This document shows positions 1,242-61,736 of a DNA stretch of 64,000 bases, piece after piece. The stretch is taken from positions 2,077,501 through 2,141,500 of the forward strand of contig NZ_AP026867.1 in the NCBI RefSeq assembly GCF_026000115.1, in the 5' to 3' direction. Position numbers and translations under genes: made by a program. The notes beneath the pieces are model-generated. The model was not told the origin of the DNA, made no database searches, and was given only the letters and a program-made list of their open reading frames with translations. This DNA is from Aureispira anguillae (GTDB lineage: Bacteria > Bacteroidota > Bacteroidia > Chitinophagales > Saprospiraceae). Within the stretch, counting starts at the first letter, position 1; every line of letters begins with the position of its first letter.

Positions 1242-1420
1242 TTTTAACTACTTTTAGCTTCGCTGCTAGGCATCCCCGTTGGTACACCCTACCAAACTGC
1301 TCGTGCACTACGTTTATGTGGTTTTAGAAGAAAGTAATCGATCGTAAGTCGTATGTCCTGTATTTACAGGAACTAAGCATATGACTTACAACCAAAGTAG
1401 TAATAAGCAGTATAGAGTAC
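1242..1420. repeat. R1 repeat copy a, truncated hairpin element
   Basis: This stretch fills most of the 461-bp gap between the DUF2461 and SPFH genes. It carries the R1 core hairpin: arms 1344-1355 and 1378-1389 (GTAAGTCGTATG / CATATGACTTAC), capped by a small CCTGTATTTACAGG hairpin. Its left half (TTTTAACTACTTTTAGC, then GCTGCT) is the reverse complement of the right half of R1d at 60.5 kb. The right side matches other R1 copies only as far as AGTAATAAGCAG and then diverges. The terminal TTTGACAA repeats are missing, so this copy is partial or rearranged. Confidence 0.7.
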
Positions 1421-9493: not shown

Positions 9494-9743
9494 AATAATA
9501 ATAGATATAATCTTATCAATTGTTGGTTTGTTTTAGAAAGTACTTATTAGGAGCAAAAACATTGTACTAGCCATTAAGTTGTTAACTTTCTAACATTTTT
9601 TTTATTTTCGGAGCGAACTTACAAATTTTGAGTCAATAAGTTCTTATTAAGGTTTCGTTTGCTGCATGCACCTTTGGGTTGTCAAAGAATGATATTTTTT
9701 AAGGACAAATTTAAAATTAATTATCAAACAAAATAAATAGAGA

Positions 9744-25861: not shown

Positions 25862-26083
25862 TAATACTCTCTGCTGCTGCTTCAATGTTTTAGTTCGTTA
25901 TACTCATGAAATAGTTAATAAAAAACATAAAAAAGAAGAGTTAGTACGCTAACGCTTATGAGCTCGCAGGGCTCAGTTCGCTGCGTTCATGTATCAATTT
26001 GATGATCAGTATTTTAGTATTCTGATTGTTAGAAAATTATCTTATTGATTATCAAATTAATACGATTTTATAGCGGAGTAATG
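25862..26083. mobile_element. R2 MITE-like element copy 2
   Basis: A 222-bp element with ends TAATACTCT (25862-25870) and GGAGTAATG (26075-26083), flanked by AAAAA on both sides (25857-25861, 26084-26088). Its right end reads in reverse CATTACTCCGCTATAAAATC, closely matching the left ends of copies 3, 4 and 5. The interior has GCTTATGAGC (25954-25963) and GTTCGCTGCGTTCATG. It fills most of the 430-bp gap 25824-26253; the remainder shows no feature. Confidence 0.8.
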
Positions 26084-28611: not shown

Positions 28612-28676
28612 TTAGATCGTTTCACGCTTAGATCCCAATTAAGTTGTAATTGGGATCTAAGAGCAAAACGATCTAA
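28612..28676. repeat. Nested hairpin between pncB and the NrtR-like gene
   Basis: The outer stem is TTAGATCGTTT (28612-28622) with AAACGATCTAA (28666-28676). The inner stem is CTTAGATCCCAATTA (28627-28641) with TAATTGGGATCTAAG (28647-28661), both perfect. It sits in the 235-bp gap downstream of pncB and upstream of the regulator gene. It is followed directly by an R5 repeat. It could end the pncB transcript or be part of the repeat; it is unlikely to be a simple operator because of its length. Confidence 0.6.
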
Positions 28677-28688
28677 AAATAGATAAAA

Positions 28689-28723
28689 GCTGCTCCCATT
28701 TTAATTTTTACAAAAATCATCGG
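28689..28723 (+). repeat. R5 repeat copy b (35 bp)
   Basis: Begins GCTGCTCCCATTTTAATT and ends ACAAAAATCATCGG. It is uninterrupted and matches the reconstructed 36841-37065 copy at 33 of 35 positions, which is what identifies the R1b insertion there. Confidence 0.8.
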
Positions 28724-28747
28724 ATAGAGGGAGGCACTGTAATAAAT

Positions 28748-33075: not shown

Positions 33076-33597
33076 CTAATCTAACAATAGTAACAAAGCA
33101 GCAGCAGCAATAGCTTCTTTGGTATTGCAATCATCTTTACTGCTATTTGGGCGTATTTGTCCAACGGTTACATAATCATATCTCCCTTCTTTTTTTTCAA
33201 TCCAAACAGTTTTACTATCACTGCCATAGGTGCGTGCCTGACCAATGGTTACATAATCATATCTCCCTTCTTTTTTTTCGATCCAAATAGTTTCACTACT
33301 ACCACCATTGTCTCGGACTTGCCCAACGGTTACATAATCATATCTTCCTTCTTTTTTTTCAATCCAAACTGTTTTACTGTCACTACCATTGGAACGTGCT
33401 TGTCCAACGGTTACATAATCATATCTCCCTTCTTTTTTTTCAATCCAAGTAGTTTTACTATCACTGCCATTGGAACGTGCCTGTCCAACGGTTACATAAT
33501 CATATCTCCCTTCTTTTTTTTCAACCCAACATTGTGCGTTAGTTTGAAGAATGTTTAATAATAGTAGTGATGTTGTTAATAAAATTAAATTTTTCAT
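33076..33597 (-). CDS. Exported tandem-repeat protein A (five 27-residue repeats)
   Basis: A 173-residue protein with an N-terminal signal (MKNLILLTTSLLLLNILQTN) and mature start near AQCW. From residue 24 it has five near-identical units of the form W(I/V)EKKEGRYDYVTVGQxR plus a Gly/Ser-rich linker, 27 residues each (81 bp at DNA level). It ends with SSKDDCNTKEAIAAAA and a hydrophobic LLLLLD. There are only two Cys in the mature protein, Cys23 and one in KDDCNT, bracketing the repeats. A paralogue lies at 34090-34596 and shares the signal, the repeat pattern and the identical tail. I do not recognise the family. A beta-rich repeat domain is likely. Confidence 0.7.
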   Translation of the reverse strand: MKNLILLTTSLLLLNILQTNAQCWVEKKEGRYDYVTVGQARSNGSDSKTTWIEKKEGRYDYVTVGQARSNGSDSKTVWIEKKEGRYDYVTVGQVRDNGGSSETIWIEKKEGRYDYVTIGQARTYGSDSKTVWIEKKEGRYDYVTVGQIRPNSSKDDCNTKEAIAAAALLLLLD

Positions 33598-34089: not shown

Positions 34090-34596
34090 CTAATCTAACA
34101 ATAGTAACAAAGCAGCAGCAGCAATAGCTTCTTTGGTGTTGCAATTATCTTTACTGCTATTTGGGCGTAATTTACCAACGGTAACAAAGTCGTACCCTTC
34201 TTTTTTATCAATCCAGATGGTTTCAATTCCTCCACCATTTTCTCGTGCTTTACCAACGGTAACAAAATCGTATCCTTCTTTTTTATCAATCCAAATGGTT
34301 TCAATTCCACCGCCATTTTCTCGTAATTTACCAACGGTAACAAAGTCGTATCCTTCTTTTTTATCAATCCAAGTGGTTTCAATTCCCCCACCATTTTCTC
34401 GCACTTTACCAACGGTAACAAAGTCGTATCCTTCTTTTTTATCAATCCAAGTGGTTTCAATTCCTCCACCGTTTTCTCGAGTTTTACCAACGGTAACAAA
34501 GTCGTATCCTTCTTTTTTGTCAACCCAGCATTGTGCGTTGGTTTGAAGAGTGCTTAATACTAGTAGTGATGTGATTAATAAGATTAATTTTTTCAT
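34090..34596 (-). CDS. Exported tandem-repeat protein B (five 26-residue repeats)
   Basis: A 168-residue paralogue of the 33076-33597 protein: signal MKKLILLITSLLVLSTLQTN, then AQCW and five units W(I/V)DKKEGYDFVTVGKxREN plus GGGIETx of 26 residues (78 bp), ending SSKDNCNTKEAIAAAA and LLLLLD. The unit lacks one Arg relative to protein A, so the two arrays have changed and become uniform separately. I place the start at 34596; the in-frame Met at 34662 precedes an AT-rich leader without coding character. Two Cys, as in protein A. The gene runs 29 bp before the thioredoxin-like gene. Confidence 0.7.
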   Translation of the reverse strand: MKKLILLITSLLVLSTLQTNAQCWVDKKEGYDFVTVGKTRENGGGIETTWIDKKEGYDFVTVGKVRENGGGIETTWIDKKEGYDFVTVGKLRENGGGIETIWIDKKEGYDFVTVGKARENGGGIETIWIDKKEGYDFVTVGKLRPNSSKDNCNTKEAIAAAALLLLLD

Positions 34597-36806: not shown

Positions 36807-36858
36807 TTAGCGTAAAGACTATTTAATCTCTAAGAGCAAAGCTGCCCCTATTTTAATT

Positions 36859-37040
36859 GGTCCTTTGACAACTCTATCACGACAACGGAGTAGCAGTTCA
36901 GCTAAGTAAATGGTGTGAAATCGTAAATTACCTTGCCTGCTTATTACTACTTTTGTTATAAGTTATAGGTTGTAAGTCGTATGTCCTGTATTTACAGGAA
37001 CTAAGCATACGACTTACAACCTATAACTTTCTACTAAAAC
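36859..37040. mobile_element. R1 MITE-like element copy b, inserted in an R5 repeat
   Basis: A 182-bp R1 element beginning GGTCCTTTGACAACTC. The core hairpin has arms AGTTATAGGTTGTAAGTC... (36960-36983) and ...GACTTACAACCTATAACT (37006-37029), with a CCTGTATTTACAGG cap (36985-36998). The element is flanked by the perfect 8-bp repeat TTTTAATT (36851-36858 and 37041-37048). Removing it and one repeat restores a complete 35-bp R5 sequence. The right end is shorter than in copy d. Confidence 0.85.
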
Positions 37041-37082
37041 TTTTAATTTTTACAAAAATCATCGGGCAGAGAACCCAAAGAC

Positions 37083-40839: not shown

Positions 40840-42168
40840 TTATTTCTTGGTAAATTGGCTTAAATAAGTTCCTTTTGGAGTTTTTATCTGCATAAAATAA
40901 TTGCCCTTGTTCAATGTTTGAACAGAAAAGGTAGTCGCTGTTGTTTGGAGAACCAGAACTCCCAATGTATTAAAAACAAGCACCTCTTCAACTTCTTCTA
41001 ACGCTATTGTTAATTGCTTGTTGGCAGGATTAGGATAAACAGTGACGGGTTCAGAACTTGCTAATTTTTTAACATCAACTCCAAGCGTATTTTCAAACCA
41101 ATCTACAAAATGCCCAGATCTAGAGCTGGAAACAATATCCATTCTATTGTCTTGGTTTAAATCGACGGCGATAACATTCCATGCGCCATCCGCTTGGGTA
41201 TAAACAGTATGCATGTTAAAATTTTGGTTGCCATCATTTTCAAACCATGCAATTCTGTCATCTCCTAAAGAAGAAGCCACAAGATCCAAATCTGAATCGC
41301 CATCCATGTCCGCTGCAATTAAGCAAGTTGGTCCATCCATCGCATAACTAATGGTATGTACGGTAAAATTCTGAAGGCCATCATTTTCATACCAAACAAG
41401 AGAATCTCCATAAACACTTGGAGCTAAAAAATCTATGTCTAAGTCGTTGTCTAAGTCTACCGCATTAATTGTAAACGCACCTCCACCCAAAGTAGCTACA
41501 GCGTGTTCTGTAAATTGTTGACTGCCGTTGTTCTCATACCAATTAATGGTTCCATTAGTTTCTGAGGAGCCAACAACATCTAGGTCACCATCATTGTCTA
41601 TGTCTTCAATGTCTAAATCTACCGCCCAATTGATATTGGTAGTGATGGTGTGGGGAGAGAAGTTTTGATTGCCATCATTTTCATACCAAGCCAATTTATT
41701 GTCCAGTCTAGAAGCAGATAGTACATCTAGGTCTCCATCTTGGTCTAGGTCTATGGCTCTGACATCTTCGGCACCATCCGCATTGGTCGAAATTAAATTC
41801 ATCGTAAAATTTTCAGAACCATCGTTCTCATACCAAAGGACTCGATCATTCATAAAGGAAGCAACTAGCACATCTAGATCGTTGTCTCCATCCAAATCAA
41901 CAACAAAAACAGATTCGGGGCGATCCACTTCTCCTGTATTGCTGATGATGATTTTGGTGAAATTTTCGGAACCATCATTTTGTGCCCAAGAGATTCTACG
42001 ACCACTAGCTTCTGCCGTAACAATATCGAGATCGCCATCACCATCCAAGTCGATGGCTTGTGAGCTTGCTGCCCCTGTAGCATGGGAGACCGCTTGTTTG
42101 GTAAATGGAATTTGGGCATTAGCTAATCCTGCCCAGAATAGGCAAATTAATAGTAAGTTGTTTTTCAT
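40840..42168 (-). CDS. FG-GAP repeat protein with T9SS sorting domain
   Basis: A 442-residue secreted protein. Signal MKNNLLLICLFWAGLANA. It has about seven VCBS/FG-GAP repeats, each with a calcium-binding core such as DLDGDGDLDIVTA or DLDQDGDLDVL and a WYENDG motif, predicting a beta-propeller. The last 70 residues form a type A T9SS C-terminal sorting domain (VYPNPANKQLTIALEEV, ending GTYLSQFTKK), so the protein should be exported by the type IX system. The start at 42168 gives the signal peptide; an upstream in-frame Met (42204) does not. Adhesion or extracellular binding is a reasonable guess. Confidence 0.85.
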   Translation of the reverse strand: MKNNLLLICLFWAGLANAQIPFTKQAVSHATGAASSQAIDLDGDGDLDIVTAEASGRRISWAQNDGSENFTKIIISNTGEVDRPESVFVVDLDGDNDLDVLVASFMNDRVLWYENDGSENFTMNLISTNADGAEDVRAIDLDQDGDLDVLSASRLDNKLAWYENDGNQNFSPHTITTNINWAVDLDIEDIDNDGDLDVVGSSETNGTINWYENNGSQQFTEHAVATLGGGAFTINAVDLDNDLDIDFLAPSVYGDSLVWYENDGLQNFTVHTISYAMDGPTCLIAADMDGDSDLDLVASSLGDDRIAWFENDGNQNFNMHTVYTQADGAWNVIAVDLNQDNRMDIVSSSRSGHFVDWFENTLGVDVKKLASSEPVTVYPNPANKQLTIALEEVEEVLVFNTLGVLVLQTTATTFSVQTLNKGNYFMQIKTPKGTYLSQFTKK

Positions 42169-42612
42169 AAAAAATGGTTTAAGATTTAGAAATTCACAAC
42201 TCAAAAATAAGGGATTGATTGTATTGGAGCAATAGCAAATAATGAATCGGTATTTTTTTATCTTGAAAAGAGCAAATTACTTAATGAAAAGAGCATTTTA
42301 TTTGATGAATAAAAGTCAATAATCTATTTATTAGGCGATTATATTATCTTGCACCAATCGAAGAATTGATGTTGTCGGTCGAAAAAGCATTCGTTTTTAT
42401 TGGAAAAAATAGATATTTGTTAAACAATTTAATAATAATAATATTTATATTGGCTACACATAAGGGCAAGAAAAAATGACCTATTTAAAGTTTATGTTAA
42501 ATTATGGTGTCATTTTTATTTTTAGTTTAGCGGGCTAGAATCTACTTTCTACTTTATTTTTTGAAAAAAAAACTTATTTTTACGGCACTTTCAATAACTA
42601 AAAAAGCTATAG
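42169..42612. other. Gene-free gap before fabH
   Basis: This 444-bp AT-rich gap has no supported gene and no hairpin beyond chance. A GAAAAGAGCA word occurs twice near 42265-42295. It must hold promoters for the FG-GAP gene (reverse) and fabH (forward); none matches the consensus clearly. Confidence 0.4.
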
Positions 42613-47368: not shown

Positions 47369-47384
47369 TATGACGTTATGTAAG

Positions 47385-47479
47385 CATTACTCCGTTAAAA
47401 AATCGTATTCAACTGATTATTAGAATGATGTATTTTTATCGTTCAAAATATTAGTTATTTGATAATCAACGGAGTATTA
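47385..47479. mobile_element. R2 MITE-like element copy 3
   Basis: A 95-bp element with ends CATTACTCCGTTAAAAAATC (left) and AACGGAGTATTA (right), flanked by GTAAG (47380-47384 and 47480-47484). It is a compact R2 without the GCTTATGAGC core. The methyltransferase start is 81 bp downstream. Confidence 0.82.
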
Positions 47480-54781: not shown

Positions 54782-54861
54782 AGCGAAGCGTCCACATATT
54801 TTATACCATACTAATAAAAAGCTAGGCAAGAACCAAAAAAAAAACGTACTTTTTAAAGAAT

Positions 54862-55094
54862 CATTACTCCGTTGAAAAATCGTATTCGATTGATTATTAA
54901 AACAATGTAATTCTACTGCTCAAAACATTAGTTACTTAATAATCAATCGAATACAAGATGTTTTTTTGCTTTTTTTTAGTTCGCTTTGCTCATGAGAACA
55001 GTTGTAAAAAAGTAAAAAACTATCTCACGAGTGTAACGAACCGACCTCAGGGAGCTCATAAGCGCTAGCGCACTAGCTAATTAACGGAGTATTA
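54862..55094. mobile_element. R2 MITE-like element copy 4
   Basis: A 233-bp element with ends CATTACTCCGTTG (from 54862) and AACGGAGTATTA (ending 55094), flanked by the perfect 7-bp repeat AAAGAAT (54855-54861 and 55095-55101). The interior carries GCTCATAAGC (55054-55063), the reverse of the GCTTATGAGC core, and GTTCGCTTTGCTCATG. It fills most of the 344-bp gap upstream of the kinase. Confidence 0.85.
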
Positions 55095-55125
55095 AAAGAA
55101 TTAAACCTTTCCTTAAATTGGATAC

Positions 55126-55452
55126 TTAAAGCGTTTCAGCTTTTGATTTTAAATATAAAAAAAGCGGAAAACCACCTGCAATGCCAAATAAAAAAGTCAA
55201 AATCCAAGTTACCCAATAATTGGCAATTTTGTACTTTTTGGCTTCTTGGTATGACCAAATCATAAACAGTAAAACCATATAAAATAAGTCTGTCATAAAA
55301 GCACTGGCAATATCATTGGCAAACATACTATTGAGGGTGGTCGGAATATCTGTCCAAAGCAAAATATTCCCCGTTTCTATGCCTACTTTTAAAACAAAAA
55401 TATTGGGTAAAATAAAACCAATAATGGCTAGGGCTAGATATAGATTTTTCAT
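55126..55452 (-). CDS. DUF2834 family membrane protein
   Basis: A 108-residue membrane protein with three likely helices (LYLALAIIGFILPNIFVLKV; MTDLFYMVLLFMIWSYQ; YWVTWILTFLFGIAGGFPLF) and the NDIASAFMTDL segment, matching DUF2834. The role of the family is unknown. A diverged R1-type element lies directly upstream of its start (55477-55775), so the gene and its promoter are separated from other genes by repeats. Confidence 0.8.
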   Translation of the reverse strand: MKNLYLALAIIGFILPNIFVLKVGIETGNILLWTDIPTTLNSMFANDIASAFMTDLFYMVLLFMIWSYQEAKKYKIANYWVTWILTFLFGIAGGFPLFLYLKSKAETL

Positions 55453-55476
55453 TTGTTCTGTTGTTTTGAAAATAAG

Positions 55477-55775
55477 GGTTCAATAACAAGTTTTGTGCAA
55501 GACCAAAAGAAAAAGATTACCTTTTGCAATAGTGAGTGGGCTATAAGTTACAATTCCTATAGTTTTATATATTGTAAGTAATGGGGCAAAATTATTTATA
55601 GAATTTGCAGTAAAAGATTTTTGATATTAACAAGGCGAAAAACACAGTCATAGCCTTAGCTATGGCGAGTATTTTCAACACAGTTAAGATTAAAAAGATT
55701 GCTCGAATAAACTATCAATAATTTAGATTCATTACTTAGTTGTTAAGATCTTATCACAAAACTTGTCAAAGAGCC
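55477..55775. repeat. R1-like element copy f, diverged
   Basis: A 299-bp stretch with imperfect inverted ends: GGTTCAATAACAAG then TTTTGTG (55477-55497), and CACAAAACTTGTCAAAGA then GCC (55755-55775). The inner 12 bp are perfect and the right end reads GGCTCTTTGACAAG in reverse, as in other R1 ends. It lacks the core hairpin. The interior holds AGTCATAGCCTTAGCTATGG, a partly palindromic word. It fills most of the 380-bp gap 55453-55832. Flanks do not match well, so moderate confidence. Confidence 0.5.
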
Positions 55776-55832
55776 AAAAAAATTATTAAAACAAAGATAA
55801 ACAGCAACAAGGCGGCAATCCATTGACTTAAG

Positions 55833-56420
55833 TTAAGATTTTTTAGTTTTGGTAGCAATTCTCTTTTTTATTCTACTCAACGATTCTGCGCTAACTCCTA
55901 AATAAGAAGCAATATAATGTTGTGGCAAACGGTTGATTAAACTGCCTTTTTGGGCGAGAAATTGCAGATAACGCTGTTCGGGGTTTAGGGTGATAAAAGC
56001 GGCGATCATATTTTGATAAGTAGATAGTTCTTCTTCCATAATGACCCTAGCTAAAAAGTCAAATTTGGGAGAATAAGCCAATAATTTATAAGCAGAATCG
56101 GCAGATATTACAATCACTTGGGTGCTTTCTGTTGCTTGAAAATTGTGTTTGGCAGGTGCTTGTTTGGTAAAACTTTCGTAAGAGCTAACAAACTCGTTTT
56201 CGGTATAAAAAAAAGCGGATTTTTCTATCCCATCAACGACATAGAACAAACGAATACAACCCTTGATAATGAAAAAAAAATGCTTCGAAATAGCCTCTTG
56301 TTGCAACAGAAAATCTCCTCTAGAAAAGGTCTTTATAGGCAATAGTTCGTCCATAAAAGCCATTTCTTTTGGATCAAGTTGGATGTGTTGCTGGACAAAA
56401 TCAAAAAAAGCTTGTTTCAT
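55833..56420 (-). CDS. Crp/Fnr-family transcriptional regulator
   Basis: A 195-residue regulator. An N-terminal cyclic-nucleotide-binding fold (about 20-120; FLLQQEAISKHFFFIIKGCI, FFYTENEFVSSYESF) lacks the residues that bind cAMP in CRP and no Fnr-type Cys cluster is present. The C-terminal HTH (about 155-190) has the recognition region HYIASYLGVSAESLSRIKKR. It is of the short Bacteroidota type with unknown effector. Target genes cannot be told. Confidence 0.88.
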   Translation of the reverse strand: MKQAFFDFVQQHIQLDPKEMAFMDELLPIKTFSRGDFLLQQEAISKHFFFIIKGCIRLFYVVDGIEKSAFFYTENEFVSSYESFTKQAPAKHNFQATESTQVIVISADSAYKLLAYSPKFDFLARVIMEEELSTYQNMIAAFITLNPEQRYLQFLAQKGSLINRLPQHYIASYLGVSAESLSRIKKRIATKTKKS

Positions 56421-56440
56421 AGATAAAGAAATCTAAAAAT

Positions 56441-56620
56441 GATTCTTTGACAACCCGTAGGCTCACGCAGTAAATCATGTGATAAACACTAAAAAGGGTA
56501 AGTTTATTACCTATAACTTATAACAAAAGCAGTAATAAGCAGGCAAGGTAGTTTACGATTTTACACCATTTACTTAGCTGCGCTGCTACTCTGTGGTCGT
56601 GATAGAGTTGTCAAAAAACC
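56441..56620. mobile_element. R1 MITE-like element copy c
   Basis: A 180-bp R1 element between the Crp-like and dynamin genes: ends GATTCTTTGACAA (56441-) and TTGTCAAAAAACC (-56620), flanked by CTAAAAAT (56433-56440) and TTAAAAAT (56621-56628), which match at 7 of 8. It lacks the hairpin arms but shares over 100 bp with R1b (reverse orientation). Its right end overlaps the dynamin gene: the TGA stop at 56611-56613 is inside the TTTGACAA end. Confidence 0.8.
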
Positions 56621-58338
56621 TTAAAAATTTTACGTTCAACGTCCTTCAACTCATTTTTGAGCTCATGAGCCATTTTATCATAATCCATAATCTGATTTTT
56701 TTCTGACTTTAGGTGATGGTCAAAATCGGTAAATTGATCGTTGATTTTGGTTTTGATTTGCTGAAAATAACTGCTTAAATTCTTAGTAAGGCTCTCTTCA
56801 AATGTCATTCGTTTCTGGGCAAGTGCTTCTTTGACCGCAGCAATGTATTTTCCTTTTTTGCTAAAGGCAATTCCACCCGCTAAAAGCAGTCCCAAACCAG
56901 TAGCGATCCCTCCTGTAATATCCAAGACCGAAATTTGGGTGATAAATGTTAGAGCACCGCCAACAGCTGCCACTCCACCAGCTACATTTACCCCTGTGTA
57001 ATCAACGCCATTTCCTTTTGCAATTTTTTCTCCTTTAAAAACGTCAGATTTATCAATGAAATCGGTTAAGTTTTGTTTTAAAGAATGAACAATTTCATTG
57101 CGTTTTTGATCAATTTTATTGAACATTTCGGTAGGGTGGATGCGTAAATTTTCCAAGCTATCGAGTTCTTCTTTGACCCCGATGACCATATACGTAATAT
57201 CACTTTTTAGGCTGTCAATTCCACCATCCAAAACCAGATTGGTATCTTTGTTGAGTTGCTGAACATGTTGCTTGTTAATGTTTTCCAACCAATCCTGAGT
57301 AGATTCTCCGCCAAACATAGAACGAATGGATTTGAAGGTAAAACTAAAAAAGCCAATCCCTTTGTTGAGTTCTTCCAGTGTTTTTTCGGTATTGGCATCA
57401 TAGGCATTCATGCATTTTTGAGTCAAACCTTGGATATTTGCCAAGGTCAATGATTCTTTGCTGCTAATGATGCGATCAATACGTTCTCTAGTGCCAAAGT
57501 CAGTTTCATATTTGTTTTTGCGCAAATCAAATTCTTGGTTAATGTCCGCCATTAATTTTTTGATGATCTTGACATCTTCAATAATTTTATTGGTTGCAGC
57601 ATCTTTTAACACATCCTTGTTGATGTATTCTCGAATTGGCTCAAAACCACTAGATTCAAGATTACCTTCGTCCTCAAGTTTAGATGAAGTAATATAAATA
57701 AGCGGCGATTCAACATGCTCATTCAAAGCATACTGGTGCAATATATTTTTGTAGTTTATTTTTTCTTCCTCAGTATAGCGATCTGCTTTAGTTAAAATAA
57801 AAACAACTTTTTTAGACCATTCGCCTTTTATTTTCTTAAATAAATCCCAAGCAGATTGCACATGGATATTATCCAGTTGGAAGACAAACAGAACTAAATT
57901 ACACTTGGGGATAAAACGTTCGGTAATGATTTGGTGATCTAGTTCACGGCTATTGGTACCTGGGGTATCGACCACTGTAAGCTCTTTGAGAATCTCTGTT
58001 GGAAATTCACGAGTTGTGATTCGTTCATGACTGTTTTGGCTTAATTTTTCCGATTCCCCATAAATGATTTTCTGGACATCTTGAGTACAAATTTCGTGGC
58101 TAGTGGCACAAACGGGACTTCCCAACAATGCATTAACAAAACTACTTTTGCCCGCATTTACCTCCCCAACAATAACAAAAAGAAAATTTTCATTGATATT
58201 GTCAATTTGCCCTTTTAAAATGGTTCTAGTTTCTTTAGAGGCTCCAAATTGTCGAGCAGCTTCTAATAAATTAGAGCCCATTATTTTTAAAGAGGCTTTT
58301 AGTTCTTTTATTTTTTGGCTAACTTCTATTTTGCTCAT
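56611..58338 (-). CDS. Dynamin-like GTPase
   Basis: A 575-residue bacterial dynamin-like protein. The GTPase domain has the P-loop GEVNAGKSS (58-66), the G2/G3 segment ending VVDTPGTNSRELDH and the G4 motif LTKADRY. A helical stalk follows (about 270-420), then two adjacent hydrophobic segments (GVAAVGGALTFITQISVLD and GGIATGLGLLLAGGIAF, about 465-510) that act as a membrane paddle, and a coiled C-terminus. It should remodel or repair membranes. I start at 58338; the in-frame Met at 58377 adds a proline-rich leader. The last codons and stop lie in the R1c element end. Confidence 0.87.
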   Translation of the reverse strand: MSKIEVSQKIKELKASLKIMGSNLLEAARQFGASKETRTILKGQIDNINENFLFVIVGEVNAGKSSFVNALLGSPVCATSHEICTQDVQKIIYGESEKLSQNSHERITTREFPTEILKELTVVDTPGTNSRELDHQIITERFIPKCNLVLFVFQLDNIHVQSAWDLFKKIKGEWSKKVVFILTKADRYTEEEKINYKNILHQYALNEHVESPLIYITSSKLEDEGNLESSGFEPIREYINKDVLKDAATNKIIEDVKIIKKLMADINQEFDLRKNKYETDFGTRERIDRIISSKESLTLANIQGLTQKCMNAYDANTEKTLEELNKGIGFFSFTFKSIRSMFGGESTQDWLENINKQHVQQLNKDTNLVLDGGIDSLKSDITYMVIGVKEELDSLENLRIHPTEMFNKIDQKRNEIVHSLKQNLTDFIDKSDVFKGEKIAKGNGVDYTGVNVAGGVAAVGGALTFITQISVLDITGGIATGLGLLLAGGIAFSKKGKYIAAVKEALAQKRMTFEESLTKNLSSYFQQIKTKINDQFTDFDHHLKSEKNQIMDYDKMAHELKNELKDVERKIFKVF

Positions 58339-58406
58339 GGTAACTGATTTGTGGTGCTTGGGGGGGTGTCGAAACACACTTTTATAAACTAAACTTTATG
58401 AGATAA

Positions 58407-58509
58407 CATTACTCCGCTAGAAAATCGTATCAATTTGCTTTTTTATGTTTTTTACTTCGTGAGCGCTATGCTTTAGTTGTTAAAAGACTAAAAAATCAGC
58501 GGAGTATTA
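58407..58509. mobile_element. R2 MITE-like element copy 5
   Basis: A 103-bp element with ends CATTACTCCGCTAGAAAATC (58407-) and CAGCGGAGTATTA (-58509), flanked by AGATAA (58401-58406 and 58510-58515). The interior has GTGAGCGCTATGC. It lies 69 bp upstream of the dynamin start. Confidence 0.82.
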
Positions 58510-58554
58510 AGATAATATAAGGAAAGTCTAAGATTCTCCAAAGATCGTCAAGTA

Positions 58555-59190
58555 TTATTGTTTGTATTTAGAAAGATTCTGTCTTATACCCTTAGGTAAT
58601 AGTGGGATGTTGAGAATTTTGTTTAACAAAAGTTGGTCTTCTCCTTTGCTAACAAAGGATTGCACAATATCTGAAATAGAGCAATGGTAAGTAGACGTTT
58701 CTAGCAGTTGAATGTTATCTCCTGCCTCAATAATTCCTTCTTGAATCACTTTAAAATAGATGCCATAGCACTTCTTTTCGTAGAAAAGAGACAAAAGGTC
58801 ATCCCGTTGAAAACGAAGATTAAGTTTAAAGCAAGGAATTCTAGGTTGTATGGCTTGAAAAATAAGCGTTCCTGCTTGATAGACATTGCCGATTTGAACC
58901 TGATGATCTGGCAGGCCTTCCGTTGTTAAATTTTCTCCAAACATACCTGCTGACCAATCCACCGTTGGAAGAGTTGTTTTCCAAGCAGTATAATAACTAG
59001 AGTCATAGCTATAAATAGCTTTGTTGACACCGCCATGAAAACGAAGATCAGCTTGCCCATCTCCTTCAATATTCAAAGAAGAAACCCTTTTAGGGCCTTT
59101 TACAGGAGATTTGAAAATGCTAGTTCGAATACTTTTGCCTTTCCATTGAACCGTTTCGGGCTGACCAATATTAATGGATAAAATTTTCAT
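58555..59190 (-). CDS. MOSC-domain protein (YiiM type)
   Basis: A 211-residue protein matching the YiiM group of MOSC (molybdenum cofactor sulfurase C-terminal) proteins: MKILSINIGQPETVQWKGKS, DGQADLRFHGGVNKAIYSYD, AGMFGENLTTEGL and the conserved Cys in IQPRIPCFKLNLRF. Molybdenum-cofactor-bound MOSC enzymes reduce N-hydroxylated compounds; YiiM acts on 6-N-hydroxylaminopurine and similar. Its neighbours do not refine this. Gene is on its own after the R2-5 element. Confidence 0.85.
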   Translation of the reverse strand: MKILSINIGQPETVQWKGKSIRTSIFKSPVKGPKRVSSLNIEGDGQADLRFHGGVNKAIYSYDSSYYTAWKTTLPTVDWSAGMFGENLTTEGLPDHQVQIGNVYQAGTLIFQAIQPRIPCFKLNLRFQRDDLLSLFYEKKCYGIYFKVIQEGIIEAGDNIQLLETSTYHCSISDIVQSFVSKGEDQLLLNKILNIPLLPKGIRQNLSKYKQ

Positions 59191-59235
59191 AGATAAGAAA
59201 TCAGGATGAATAGGTCTAAAAGATGGTAATTAAAA

Positions 59236-60243
59236 TTACCGCCAAAGTAATGAAAAATCTAAAAAGTCTTTAGCGGTTTGTAGTTTATAATTTTGTTTGT
59301 TTTGGATGGCCTTCCAAAATTGTTTCCATTCGTCATTGTTTAACAACAATGCAAAACCATCTTCTAGTATTCTAGCCTTATTTTCTTTTTGTTGACCAAT
59401 AATTAAAAGCATACAGCCTCCCATTGTGTTTCCTTGGCTATTGGGTGGCGTGATGGCTTCTGGAGCATTGGGTTGAAAAGACCAGGTTAAGCAAGCATCT
59501 GCTTTGGAATCCAAACTGGGCAAAAATGCCAAGGGAATAGAACTGGGGAACGTTTCATGTGCTAGGTTGAGTTGAGCAGTATAATTGATGGTTAGGTAAA
59601 TGTGTTGATTATTAATTAGGGTTACAGAGGCTTCAGGAAAAACCATTCGCCGAAGGCTTTTTAAAAGACTTTTGTTAAGTTCCTGAATTAATAAGTTTTC
59701 TCTATAATGATCTGTCCAATAAGGAAAGGGATAATAGCGTGCTTGCTTCCCTAACATGGATAGAATGCGAGTATATCCAAATTCTTGAACGGCTTGAACC
59801 TCCTCTAAACTTAACAAAACCATATTTAGGCATTGTTTGGGTAAAATTCCTTGTAGATGAGCAGGAGCTTTAGCATAAACAATTCCTTTCCATCCCCACA
59901 AATCGTTTTCGCCAAACTGTGTAATACTACCTTCTTTGGCAAGATGCCCTTGTTGTGCTACTTTATAAACTTGTTGAAAAAAATAGAGGGGCTCTTGAGG
60001 AACTTCATCAAGATTGGTGCGATTGGTTTTTAATACAAAAAACAACTCTTGTTGCCCCTGACTTTCTAAGCCTCTTGTTGTAAAAGATAGCGCTTTCTTA
60101 TTTTGATTGTCAAAGGTAACGGGAAGTTCATGTACAGCAACAGATACCCATAGTTCTCCAGGGATTAACTCAAGGGTAGCAGGGAGGCTCGTTGCCTCTT
60201 TATTGGTTCTAAATTTATTAAATATTTTTTTGAAGAAACCCAT
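59236..60243 (-). CDS. Hypothetical protein
   Basis: A 335-residue cytoplasmic protein not assigned to a family. It has a basic N-terminal helix (MGFFKKIFNKFRTNKEA), then beta-rich segments (PGELWVSVAVHELPVTFDNQ, QQELFFVLKTNR, WGWKGIVYAK) and a mixed C-terminal half with LLIIGQQKENKARILEDGFA. The overall look is of a two-domain alpha/beta protein. It lies 45 bp upstream of the MOSC gene, so they may be co-transcribed. Confidence 0.65.
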   Translation of the reverse strand: MGFFKKIFNKFRTNKEATSLPATLELIPGELWVSVAVHELPVTFDNQNKKALSFTTRGLESQGQQELFFVLKTNRTNLDEVPQEPLYFFQQVYKVAQQGHLAKEGSITQFGENDLWGWKGIVYAKAPAHLQGILPKQCLNMVLLSLEEVQAVQEFGYTRILSMLGKQARYYPFPYWTDHYRENLLIQELNKSLLKSLRRMVFPEASVTLINNQHIYLTINYTAQLNLAHETFPSSIPLAFLPSLDSKADACLTWSFQPNAPEAITPPNSQGNTMGGCMLLIIGQQKENKARILEDGFALLLNNDEWKQFWKAIQNKQNYKLQTAKDFLDFSLLWR

Positions 60244-60306
60244 CTTTTGTTTTCTGATAAGGATAAAAAAGGTTCAAGCGTAAGCTTACGAAGTTAAACA
60301 AATAAT

Positions 60307-60528
60307 GGTTCTTTGACAAATGGTGTGGAATCGTAAACTACCTTGCCTGCTTATTACTATTCTTGTTATAAGTTATAGGTGGTAAGTCGTATGTCCTGTA
60401 TTTACAGGAACTAAGCATACGACTTACCACCTATAACTTTCTTCTAAAACCACGTAGTAGCAGCGAAGCTAAAAGTAGTTAAAAGCTTATCCTTTTTTAG
60501 TGTTTACCACACGATTTGTCAAAGAACC
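60307..60528. mobile_element. R1 MITE-like element copy d, complete
   Basis: A 222-bp element with perfect 15-bp inverted ends GGTTCTTTGACAAAT (60307-60321) and ATTTGTCAAAGAACC (60514-60528). Flanks CAAATAAT (60299-60306) and CCAATAAT (60529-60536) match at 7 of 8. The core hairpin arms are 60370-60393 and 60416-60439, with GGTGG/CCACC where R1b has GGTTG/CAACC: paired changes that keep the stem. No coding potential. It fills the middle of the 473-bp gap before ltaE. Confidence 0.9.
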
Positions 60529-60716
60529 CCAATAATTAGATTATTATATGAGTTTTTTATAAACAAAACGAGGAAATAGAACAATTTGTAGGTTTCTTGG
60601 TTGTTTAGAATTTTATTTTTTATAAAGTAGAGAAAGAGGACGCAAGAATCATAGGAATTATTTTTTAGTTTTATGCTCGCTGTCTGGCAAAAATAAAAAC
60701 TTAAATAGAAAAACAA

Positions 60717-61736
60717 ATGATTGTAGATTTACGAAGCGATACGGTTACACAACCAACACTAGCTATGAAAACGGCTATGTTTGAAGCTCCCTTGGGAGAT
60801 GATGTCTTTGGGGATGATCCTTCTGTTAATGAGTTAGAGCGCTTTTCGGCTGCTTTATTTGGAATGGAGGCTGCTGTATATTGCCCCTCAGGGACGATGA
60901 CAAACCAAATTGCCATCAAAATTAATAGCAATGCACCTGGCGAAATTATTTGTGACCAATTAGCTCATATCTATAAATATGAAGGTGGAGGGATTGGTTT
61001 TAATGCTGGTTTAGCAAGCCACTTATTGGCTGGTGATAAGGGGCGTTTGAGTGCCGAACAAATTGAAGCCGCAATACAGCCAGATGATCCTCATTTTCCC
61101 GAAACACAGGTCGTAAGTTTGGAAAATACTTGCAATAAAGGAGGTGGTTCAATTTATGACTTGGAAGAAATCAAAAAAATAAGCACTTTATGCAAGAATA
61201 GAGGGCTAAAATTGCATTTGGATGGGGCAAGGGTTTTTAACGCCATTGTAGAAGCAGATTATGGGGCAAAAGATTTGGGAGCGCAATTTGATACCATTTC
61301 AGTCTGTTTATCGAAGGGCTTGGGGGCTCCTGTGGGTTCCGTTTTATTGGGGAGTCAAAGGGCTATAAAGAAGGCTAGACGGATTCGGAAATTGTTTGGT
61401 GGTGGAATGAGGCAGGCAGGTATTTTAGCTGCTGCTGGTACATTTGCCTTAAAAAATAACATTGAACGGTTGAAAGAGGATCATGCCAAGGCAAAAATAC
61501 TAGGCAATACCTTAGAGAATTGTTCTTATGTCAAGCGAGTGTTGCCAGTATATACCAATATTGTAGTTTTTGAAGTACAAGACCACCTGTCGCATACTGC
61601 TATTATAGAGCAACTCAATCAAGAACAGATCAAAACCGTTGCTTTTGGCCCACAGCAAATACGTTTGGTAACGCATCTAAATTTTACAGAAAAAATGTTG
61701 GAAAAAACAATAACAGTATTAGATAAATTAAAATAA
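60717..61736 (+). CDS. ltaE: Low-specificity L-threonine aldolase
   Basis: A 339-residue pyridoxal-phosphate enzyme that splits threonine and allo-threonine to glycine and acetaldehyde. Motifs: MIVDLRSDTVTQPTLAMKTA, PLGDDVFGDDPSVNELE, HIYKYEGGG, LHLDGARVFNA (PLP-binding Asp) and the Schiff-base Lys200 in SVCLSKGLGAPVGS. Length matches. It is monocistronic with its own terminator. The R1d element lies about 190 bp upstream. Confidence 0.92.
   Translation: MIVDLRSDTVTQPTLAMKTAMFEAPLGDDVFGDDPSVNELERFSAALFGMEAAVYCPSGTMTNQIAIKINSNAPGEIICDQLAHIYKYEGGGIGFNAGLASHLLAGDKGRLSAEQIEAAIQPDDPHFPETQVVSLENTCNKGGGSIYDLEEIKKISTLCKNRGLKLHLDGARVFNAIVEADYGAKDLGAQFDTISVCLSKGLGAPVGSVLLGSQRAIKKARRIRKLFGGGMRQAGILAAAGTFALKNNIERLKEDHAKAKILGNTLENCSYVKRVLPVYTNIVVFEVQDHLSHTAIIEQLNQEQIKTVAFGPQQIRLVTHLNFTEKMLEKTITVLDKLK

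Follow-up and report, generated by a model that had tools for sequence, protein, structure and literature searches.

We confirm that positions 60307-60528 of the window (the whole 64-kb stretch of DNA analysed here, positions 2077501-2141500 of contig 1 in a 7.79 Mb genome of three contigs) are one copy of a large MITE family; that is, of elements that are short, that have no transposase gene, that have inverted ends and a fixed 8-bp target duplication, and that have ends in common with autonomous IS elements. The reading that we favour, and consider probable as a whole, is that the family consists of MITEs with ISL3-type ends, and that the pairing of their hairpin results from template switching between the hairpin arms. 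According to this reading, MITEs with ends recognised by DDE transposases of the ISL3 family would insert between genes in A+T-rich DNA, duplicating 8 bp of the target, an ISL3 transposase would act in trans on the gene-less elements, and DNA polymerase would switch template between hairpin arms during replication, which would copy one arm onto the other, yielding paired stem changes, and would turn the loop.

The search of the full genome with copy d (60307-60528) that the earlier note had proposed gave 114 BLASTN match rows, at no fewer than 40 separate places at E <= 1.5e-37, a lower bound, with 40 of 176 BLASTN candidates scored. The end motif GGNTCTTTGACAA has 63 exact matches in the genome, vs. 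1 for the reversed pattern, and GGTTCTTTGACAA with at most one mismatch has 177, vs. 10 for the reversed pattern. We fetched 90 loci around copies and ends in this genome, a subset of all copies, and analysed two sets of elements: a flank-blind set of 55 distinct pairs of ends that face inward, with a spacing of 90-450 bp and at most two mismatches per end, and a flank-selected set, also of 55 elements, chosen with flanks matching at 6/8 or better. Elements of the flank-selected set are 136-346 bp long, and none of the 55 lies within an ORF that is at least 100 codons long; the inverted ends are 13-22 bp. By interior sequence, 37 of the 55 flank-selected elements are type A and 16 are type B, a third interior type is present at 55477-55775, and other interiors are present in relatives (genomes G001, G006, G026 and G029), with short modules near the ends swapped between interior types. 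A CCACGTAGTAGCAGCGAAGCTAA-like module is present inside another repeat in two genomes of the same genus as that of the window (L092, L093, L096 and L097 in G003 and G008), with no GGTTCTTTGACAA end beside it in the stretches inspected; this module seems to be common to different repeat families.

Within the window (Table 1), copies b, c and d were found where the earlier note had placed them, with the flanking repeats that it had described. The ends that it had described are present on both sides of copy d, where the two 22-bp termini, one of them read inverted, are the same at 21 of 22 positions, but not on both sides of copy b, which stops on its right at CTACTAAAAC without a terminal repeat, possibly because a deletion has since removed it up to the duplication. 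Two further stretches had been named as relatives: one, at 1242-1420, is a fragment, and the other, at 55477-55775, has related ends, as claimed, around a different interior (its right end, at 55763-55775, or 2133263-2133275 of contig 1, was located in the genome-wide end search).

Table 1. Copies, target duplications and hairpin parts of the MITE family in the window (window positions)
Feature	Position	Strand	Remarks
MITE copy d (type A)	60307-60528	+	222 bp; ends 13/13 GGTTCTTTGACAA at both sides; flanks 7/8; BLASTN query
Copy d, left 8-bp target duplication	60299-60306	.	CAAATAAT
Copy d, right 8-bp target duplication	60529-60536	.	CCAATAAT; 7/8 vs. left duplication
Copy d, core hairpin, left arm	60372-60393	+	22 nt counted
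Copy d, hairpin loop/apex	60394-60415	+	TCCTGTATTTACAGGAACTAAG; both orientations occur among copies
Copy d, core hairpin, right arm	60416-60437	+	22 nt counted
MITE copy b (type A)	36859-37040	+	Left end GGTCCTTTGACAA; right terminal repeat missing
Copy b, target duplications	36851-36858 and 37041-37048		TTTTAATT on both sides, 8/8
MITE copy c (type A, core hairpin lost)	56441-56620	-	Ends GATTCTTTGACAA and GGTTTTTTGACAA (inverted); flanks CTAAAAAT/TTAAAAAT, 7/8
Element with related ends and a third, unrelated interior	55477-55775	.	Ends GGTTCAATAACAAG, and GGCTCTTTGACAAG inverted; flanks 6/8 by eye
Type A fragment without terminal repeats	1242-1420	-	Fused to a repeat of a different kind
Paralogous repeat with uninterrupted target resembling that of copy b	28699-28729	+	Sequence comparison

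The window contains other repeats. A further repeat, present at 28612-28727, 37041-37078 and 1203-1257, forms its own hairpin at 28612-28676, and its stretch at 37041-37078 carries an end that reads GGTTCTCTGCCCGATGATTTTTG on inversion; it looks like another MITE, host to the insertion of copy b and forming a mosaic with the fragment at 1242-1420, and its stretch at 28699-28729 looks, by comparison of the sequences, like the uninterrupted target of copy b. An isolated end-like stretch at 9658-9697, GGTTGTCAAAGAATG, matches, once inverted, the start of copy c. Motif ATTACTCCG and inverted relatives of it occur in additional repeats at 47382-47476, 54859-54953, 26053-26083 and 58407-58437. Two arrays, of 81-bp and 78-bp units and flanked by related sequence, are present within neighbouring minus-strand ORFs at 33152-33556 and 34153-34542, and repeats at a spacing of 147 bp or double that are present at 41207-41840, within a minus-strand ORF (40840-42204).

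Most copies of the family contain a long internal inverted repeat. We found 49 type A cores and counted stem pairs in the 40 that have arms of equal length, nine being dropped for an arm indel. Watson-Crick pairs account for 822 of the 880 stem cells in these 40 cores, and the 58 mismatched cells comprise 16 G.T, 16 A.C and 26 others. Changes on both sides of the stem occur at 6 of 22 stem positions and give ten further pair types; at stem position 13, C-G is present in 25 cores, T-A in 5, A-T in 4 and G-C in 1. The paired change between copies b and d that the earlier note had reported (GGTTG/CAACC vs. GGTGG/CCACC) is present, and copy c is an exception to the core hairpin described there, having lost it (inner fold z -0.7). 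The number of double-changed cells is 24, vs. 5.9 in column shuffles (maximum 15 in 2000 shuffles; 31 distinct rows); in the same test the 6 double-changed positions are unexceptional (the shuffles average 3.8 and reach 9), and the 10 types are only as many as the richest shuffle gave. We conclude that stem covariation is present, and that the arms change together as had been claimed, in a comparison with column shuffles that ignore relatedness. In type B, one core (L041) is longer by one base pair, through an insertion in each arm, and another has a paired substitution (L068).

The 22-nt loop is in the forward orientation in 28, and in the inverted orientation in 20, of 48 type A cores; the corresponding numbers for 10 type B cores are 5 and 5. 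On a tree of low resolution, built from element sequence outside the core and with 5 of its 45 inner branches starred, loop orientation needs 17 changes, vs. 15.5 with shuffled labels, and the starred branches alone force four orientation changes. Outside the core, two copies with opposite loops, L017 and L052, agree at 98% over 150 columns. In the few copies of two other genomes (G001 and G006) that were compared by eye no inverted loop was seen, and the demonstration of free loop inversion thus applies to the genome of the window only. One account of these orientations is that about every transposition sets the direction of the loop and the identity of the arms anew, the hairpin being opened and recopied in random orientation in an ISL3-type cycle. 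This account is compatible with the results because orientation is unclustered on the tree; fast background inversion fits as well, and we hold redrawing at each jump to be rather unlikely.

A further alternative, and the one for which the earlier note had argued, is that the hairpin is kept by selection on a fold of RNA or of single-stranded DNA, such as a regulatory RNA, a terminator or a structure used in transposition. The covariation of the arms, with its 6 of 22 positions and 10 double-change types, is what this alternative predicts, as is the recurrence of hairpins of unrelated sequence among 19 hand-picked representatives from five genomes (inner fold z <= -3 in 12 of the 19, and above -1 in three, copy c and two elements of G026). 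However, a fold of one RNA strand should accept G.U and purge A.C, whereas G.T and A.C mismatches are equally frequent, 16 to 16, and loops that invert freely are likewise not expected under it. Elements without the core also count against it: in the flank-blind set, flanks of 7/8 or better are present in 5 of 5 pairs without the core, vs. 38 of 50 with the core, and the core is missing from nine of the 55 flank-selected elements, these nine having flanks of 7/8 (three) or 8/8 (six). Moreover, two hairpin-less type B forms are each present at multiple sites (L040 and L053; L044, L079 and L083). Gaps between convergent genes hold 3 of 53 elements (16 divergent, 34 tandem), vs. 10 of 63 background gaps (7 divergent, 46 tandem), with ORF calls that are crude and after exclusion of 2 of 55 elements that lie at the edge of a locus; gene orientation thus leaves a terminator role unsupported. 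A search of 55000-61000 against Rfam gave no family at gathering score, two microRNA models matching the long hairpin below threshold. Taken with the paired insertion in both arms, these results weaken the claim that the folded form is under selection; we consider such selection unlikely as the explanation of the hairpin, and possible as a second layer.

Most likely, the paired changes and inverted loops come from template switching, and a maintained RNA fold is not needed to explain them. Polymerase template switching between inverted repeats yields homogenised arms and an inverted spacer or loop in the cases described in the available portions of two studies (PMC8604942, PMC8794818). Because template switching would explain at once why substitutions and indels are paired, why mismatches are symmetric and why loops are inverted, it provides a better account than selection on an RNA fold. 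We infer the mechanism from the pattern, that is, from arm homogenisation and loop inversion in place. The results carry a warning: paired stem changes in repeated palindromes, often taken as proof of a functional fold, can stem from DNA copying. The dozens of copies in each genome also make the family a dataset in which arm homogenisation and loop inversion can be measured in bacteria.

ISL3-family elements have ends that resemble GGTTCTTTG, and ISL3 was for this reason tested first as the source of the transposase. A search for IS elements with the ends of the window family, as the earlier note had suggested, identified three ISL3-family elements in three other genera of the Saprospiraceae (L262, L259 and L261; 1279, 1276 and 1267 bp), each with GGTTCTTTGACAA at 13/13 at both ends and each reading GGTTCTTTGACAATTTTTGC at both ends. 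L259 and L262 each encode a protein of 395 aa that passes the models NF033550 (NCBIfam), PF01610 and PF14690 (both Pfam); L261 may be broken, because its longest ORF is only 349 aa. The flanks of these three elements match at 7/8 in a T run (L262), do not match (L261) or are cut by a contig end (L259). MITEs of two relatives (G029 and G001) share a 20-bp end with the L262-type IS. Beyond the 13 bp, the ends of copy d continue as ATGGTGTGG and ATCGTGTGG, vs. TTTTTGC in L259, L261 and L262; the continuation of the window type, ATCGTGTGG/ATGGTGTGG, is also present in another ISL3 element, L251 (GGCTCTATGCTAAATCGTGTGGG, flanks 8/8). Of 61 ISL3 loci examined, many of the remainder being fragments, 12 have GG-starting ends and 8/8 flanks (L101, L102, L103, L106, L109, L110, L113, L116, L251, L254, L272 and L277), L103, with a palindromic flank, being less sure. 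Among genomes of the Saprospiraceae, 45 of 398 have ISL3 transposase matches, and among those of the class, 51 of 395.

By their sequence, the ends of the window family are assigned to the ISL3 type. In the genome of the window, PF01610 has no match at E <= 0.001, and because no ISL3 transposase was found there, the copies in this genome look like orphans; we infer that an ISL3 transposase now missing from the genome probably moved them in trans. ORFs of MITE loci from this genome and from relatives gave no match to an HMM of 12 ISL3 proteins, in a scan limited to ISL3. End pairs at most 4 kb apart in relatives are mostly MITE-sized, and one 3350-bp pairing encloses a complete 199-bp MITE at one end. 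Two candidates were rejected: an ISL3 remnant in G029 (L099), considered as a source, is degenerate and has no motif at its ends, and a stretch of a Bernardetia MAG that is 64% alike to an ISL3 protein and lies between 12/13 ends has flanks of only 6/8, in an A run.

IS1595 elements, too, have GG-starting ends and 8-bp duplications, and on this likeness the earlier note had proposed an IS1595-like transposase as the mover of the elements. The identical ends are, however, carried by ISL3 elements, and PF12762 is present in none of seven genomes, including that of the window and four relatives with at least 35 exact ends each; we regard movement by an IS1595-like transposase as highly improbable. 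Against the ISL3 and template-switching reading as a whole we count the missing ISL3 transposase in the genome of the window and in the scanned ORFs of MITE loci, the want of a clean duplication around the IS elements with 13/13 ends, the perhaps broken state of L261, the missing right repeat of copy b, the difference between the ends of copy d and those of L259, L261 and L262 beyond 13 bp, the unexceptional number of positions in the shuffle test and a number of types there no higher than the shuffled maximum, and the recurrence of hairpins of unrelated sequence, which is equally expected under selection for structure.

Target duplications establish that the elements have transposed. In the flank-blind set, 8-bp flanks match at 8/8 in 30 of 55 pairs, at 7/8 in 13, at 6/8 in four and at fewer positions in eight; misregistered windows beside the same elements match at 8/8 in 0.03% and at 7/8 in 0.23%. 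Flanks of 7/8 or better are thus present in 43 of 55 pairs, vs. 0.26% in the misregistered control, in agreement with the non-autonomous, transposed family with 8-bp duplications of the earlier note. Perfect adjacent repeats peak at exactly 8 bp (30 of 55, vs. 1 of 55 at 7 bp and 1 of 55 at 9 bp). In relatives, flanks match at 7/8 or better in 26 of the 42 end pairs whose ends each have one mismatch or none; these pairs, like the flank-blind set, were chosen regardless of flanks, whereas flank counts of the flank-selected set are not independent evidence. The 51 duplications of 7/8 or better in the flank-selected set are 90% A+T, vs. 64% in the loci. A+T-rich flanks of this kind, and modules shuffled between copies, might suggest that the copies are chromosomal repeats spread by recombination with flanks that match by chance, an explanation to which the exact 8-bp duplications in 30 of 55 pairs (0.03% in the control), with their peak at 8 bp, and the paralogous uninterrupted target for copy b leave a negligible probability.

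Allowing up to one mismatch, we found the end in its 22-bp form in 49 of 398 sampled genomes and in 27 of 112 genera of the family Saprospiraceae (genomes and genera tallied by hand). Of these 49 genomes, 29 have two or more matches and 20 have a single match, and genera with two or more matches per genome number 16; some of the single-match genomes may be due to chance, because the reversed 22-bp control also gives single matches, in 7 of 398 genomes. With the ISL3 assignment, a repeat whose end reaches 27 of the 112 genera sampled from a single bacterial family is tied to a transposase family that already has a name.

Elements of this general kind are already known: Microcystis has a stem-loop MITE that is linked to ISL3 and flanked by 8-nt duplications (PMC11448079, in the portion of the paper available). 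Our search of the open-access literature found no description, for this family, of a spread over many genera, of an orphan state or of loops in two orientations, and nothing on transposable elements of Aureispira; it found miniature inverted-repeat elements together with template switching for Drosophila only, and no inversion of a MITE loop or spacer. As judged by that open-access literature only, the Saprospiraceae family appears to be undescribed.

As excerpted, the account of the 187-nt MITE of Microcystis aeruginosa PCC 7806 describes a non-coding, mainly intergenic element with a stem-loop, 8-nt duplications, 31-33 copies and inverted ends GGCTCTTCG that match an ISL3-family IS of its genome (PMC11448079). 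The window family resembles it, so far as that excerpt goes, in ISL3-type ends, small size and 8-bp duplication. It differs in that the Microcystis MITE has an ISL3 element in the same genome and 33 identical copies, whereas for the window family no ISL3 gene was found and the copies have diverged, and in that the window family has at least three unrelated interior types and loops in both orientations. IS elements of the ISL3 family itself (NF033550, PF01610) have the GG-starting ends, the 8-bp flanks and, in L259, L261 and L262, the 13-bp end of the window family, but carry a transposase gene, which the window elements do not. BrickBuilt of Porphyromonas gingivalis is, according to its abstract, also a MITE of Bacteroidota and always intergenic, but is built of a 23-nt minisatellite, and the abstract mentions no ISL3 ends (PMC4596501). 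For the hairpin, the nearest likeness is to the yeast (PMC8604942) and rRNA (PMC8794818) hairpins, which, in the available extracts, have identical arms, an inverted spacer or loop and stem-half insertions, as here; the inverted spacers and loops of those cases are at most about eight nt in the same extracts, whereas here a loop of 22 nt is inverted in 20 of 48 type A cores.
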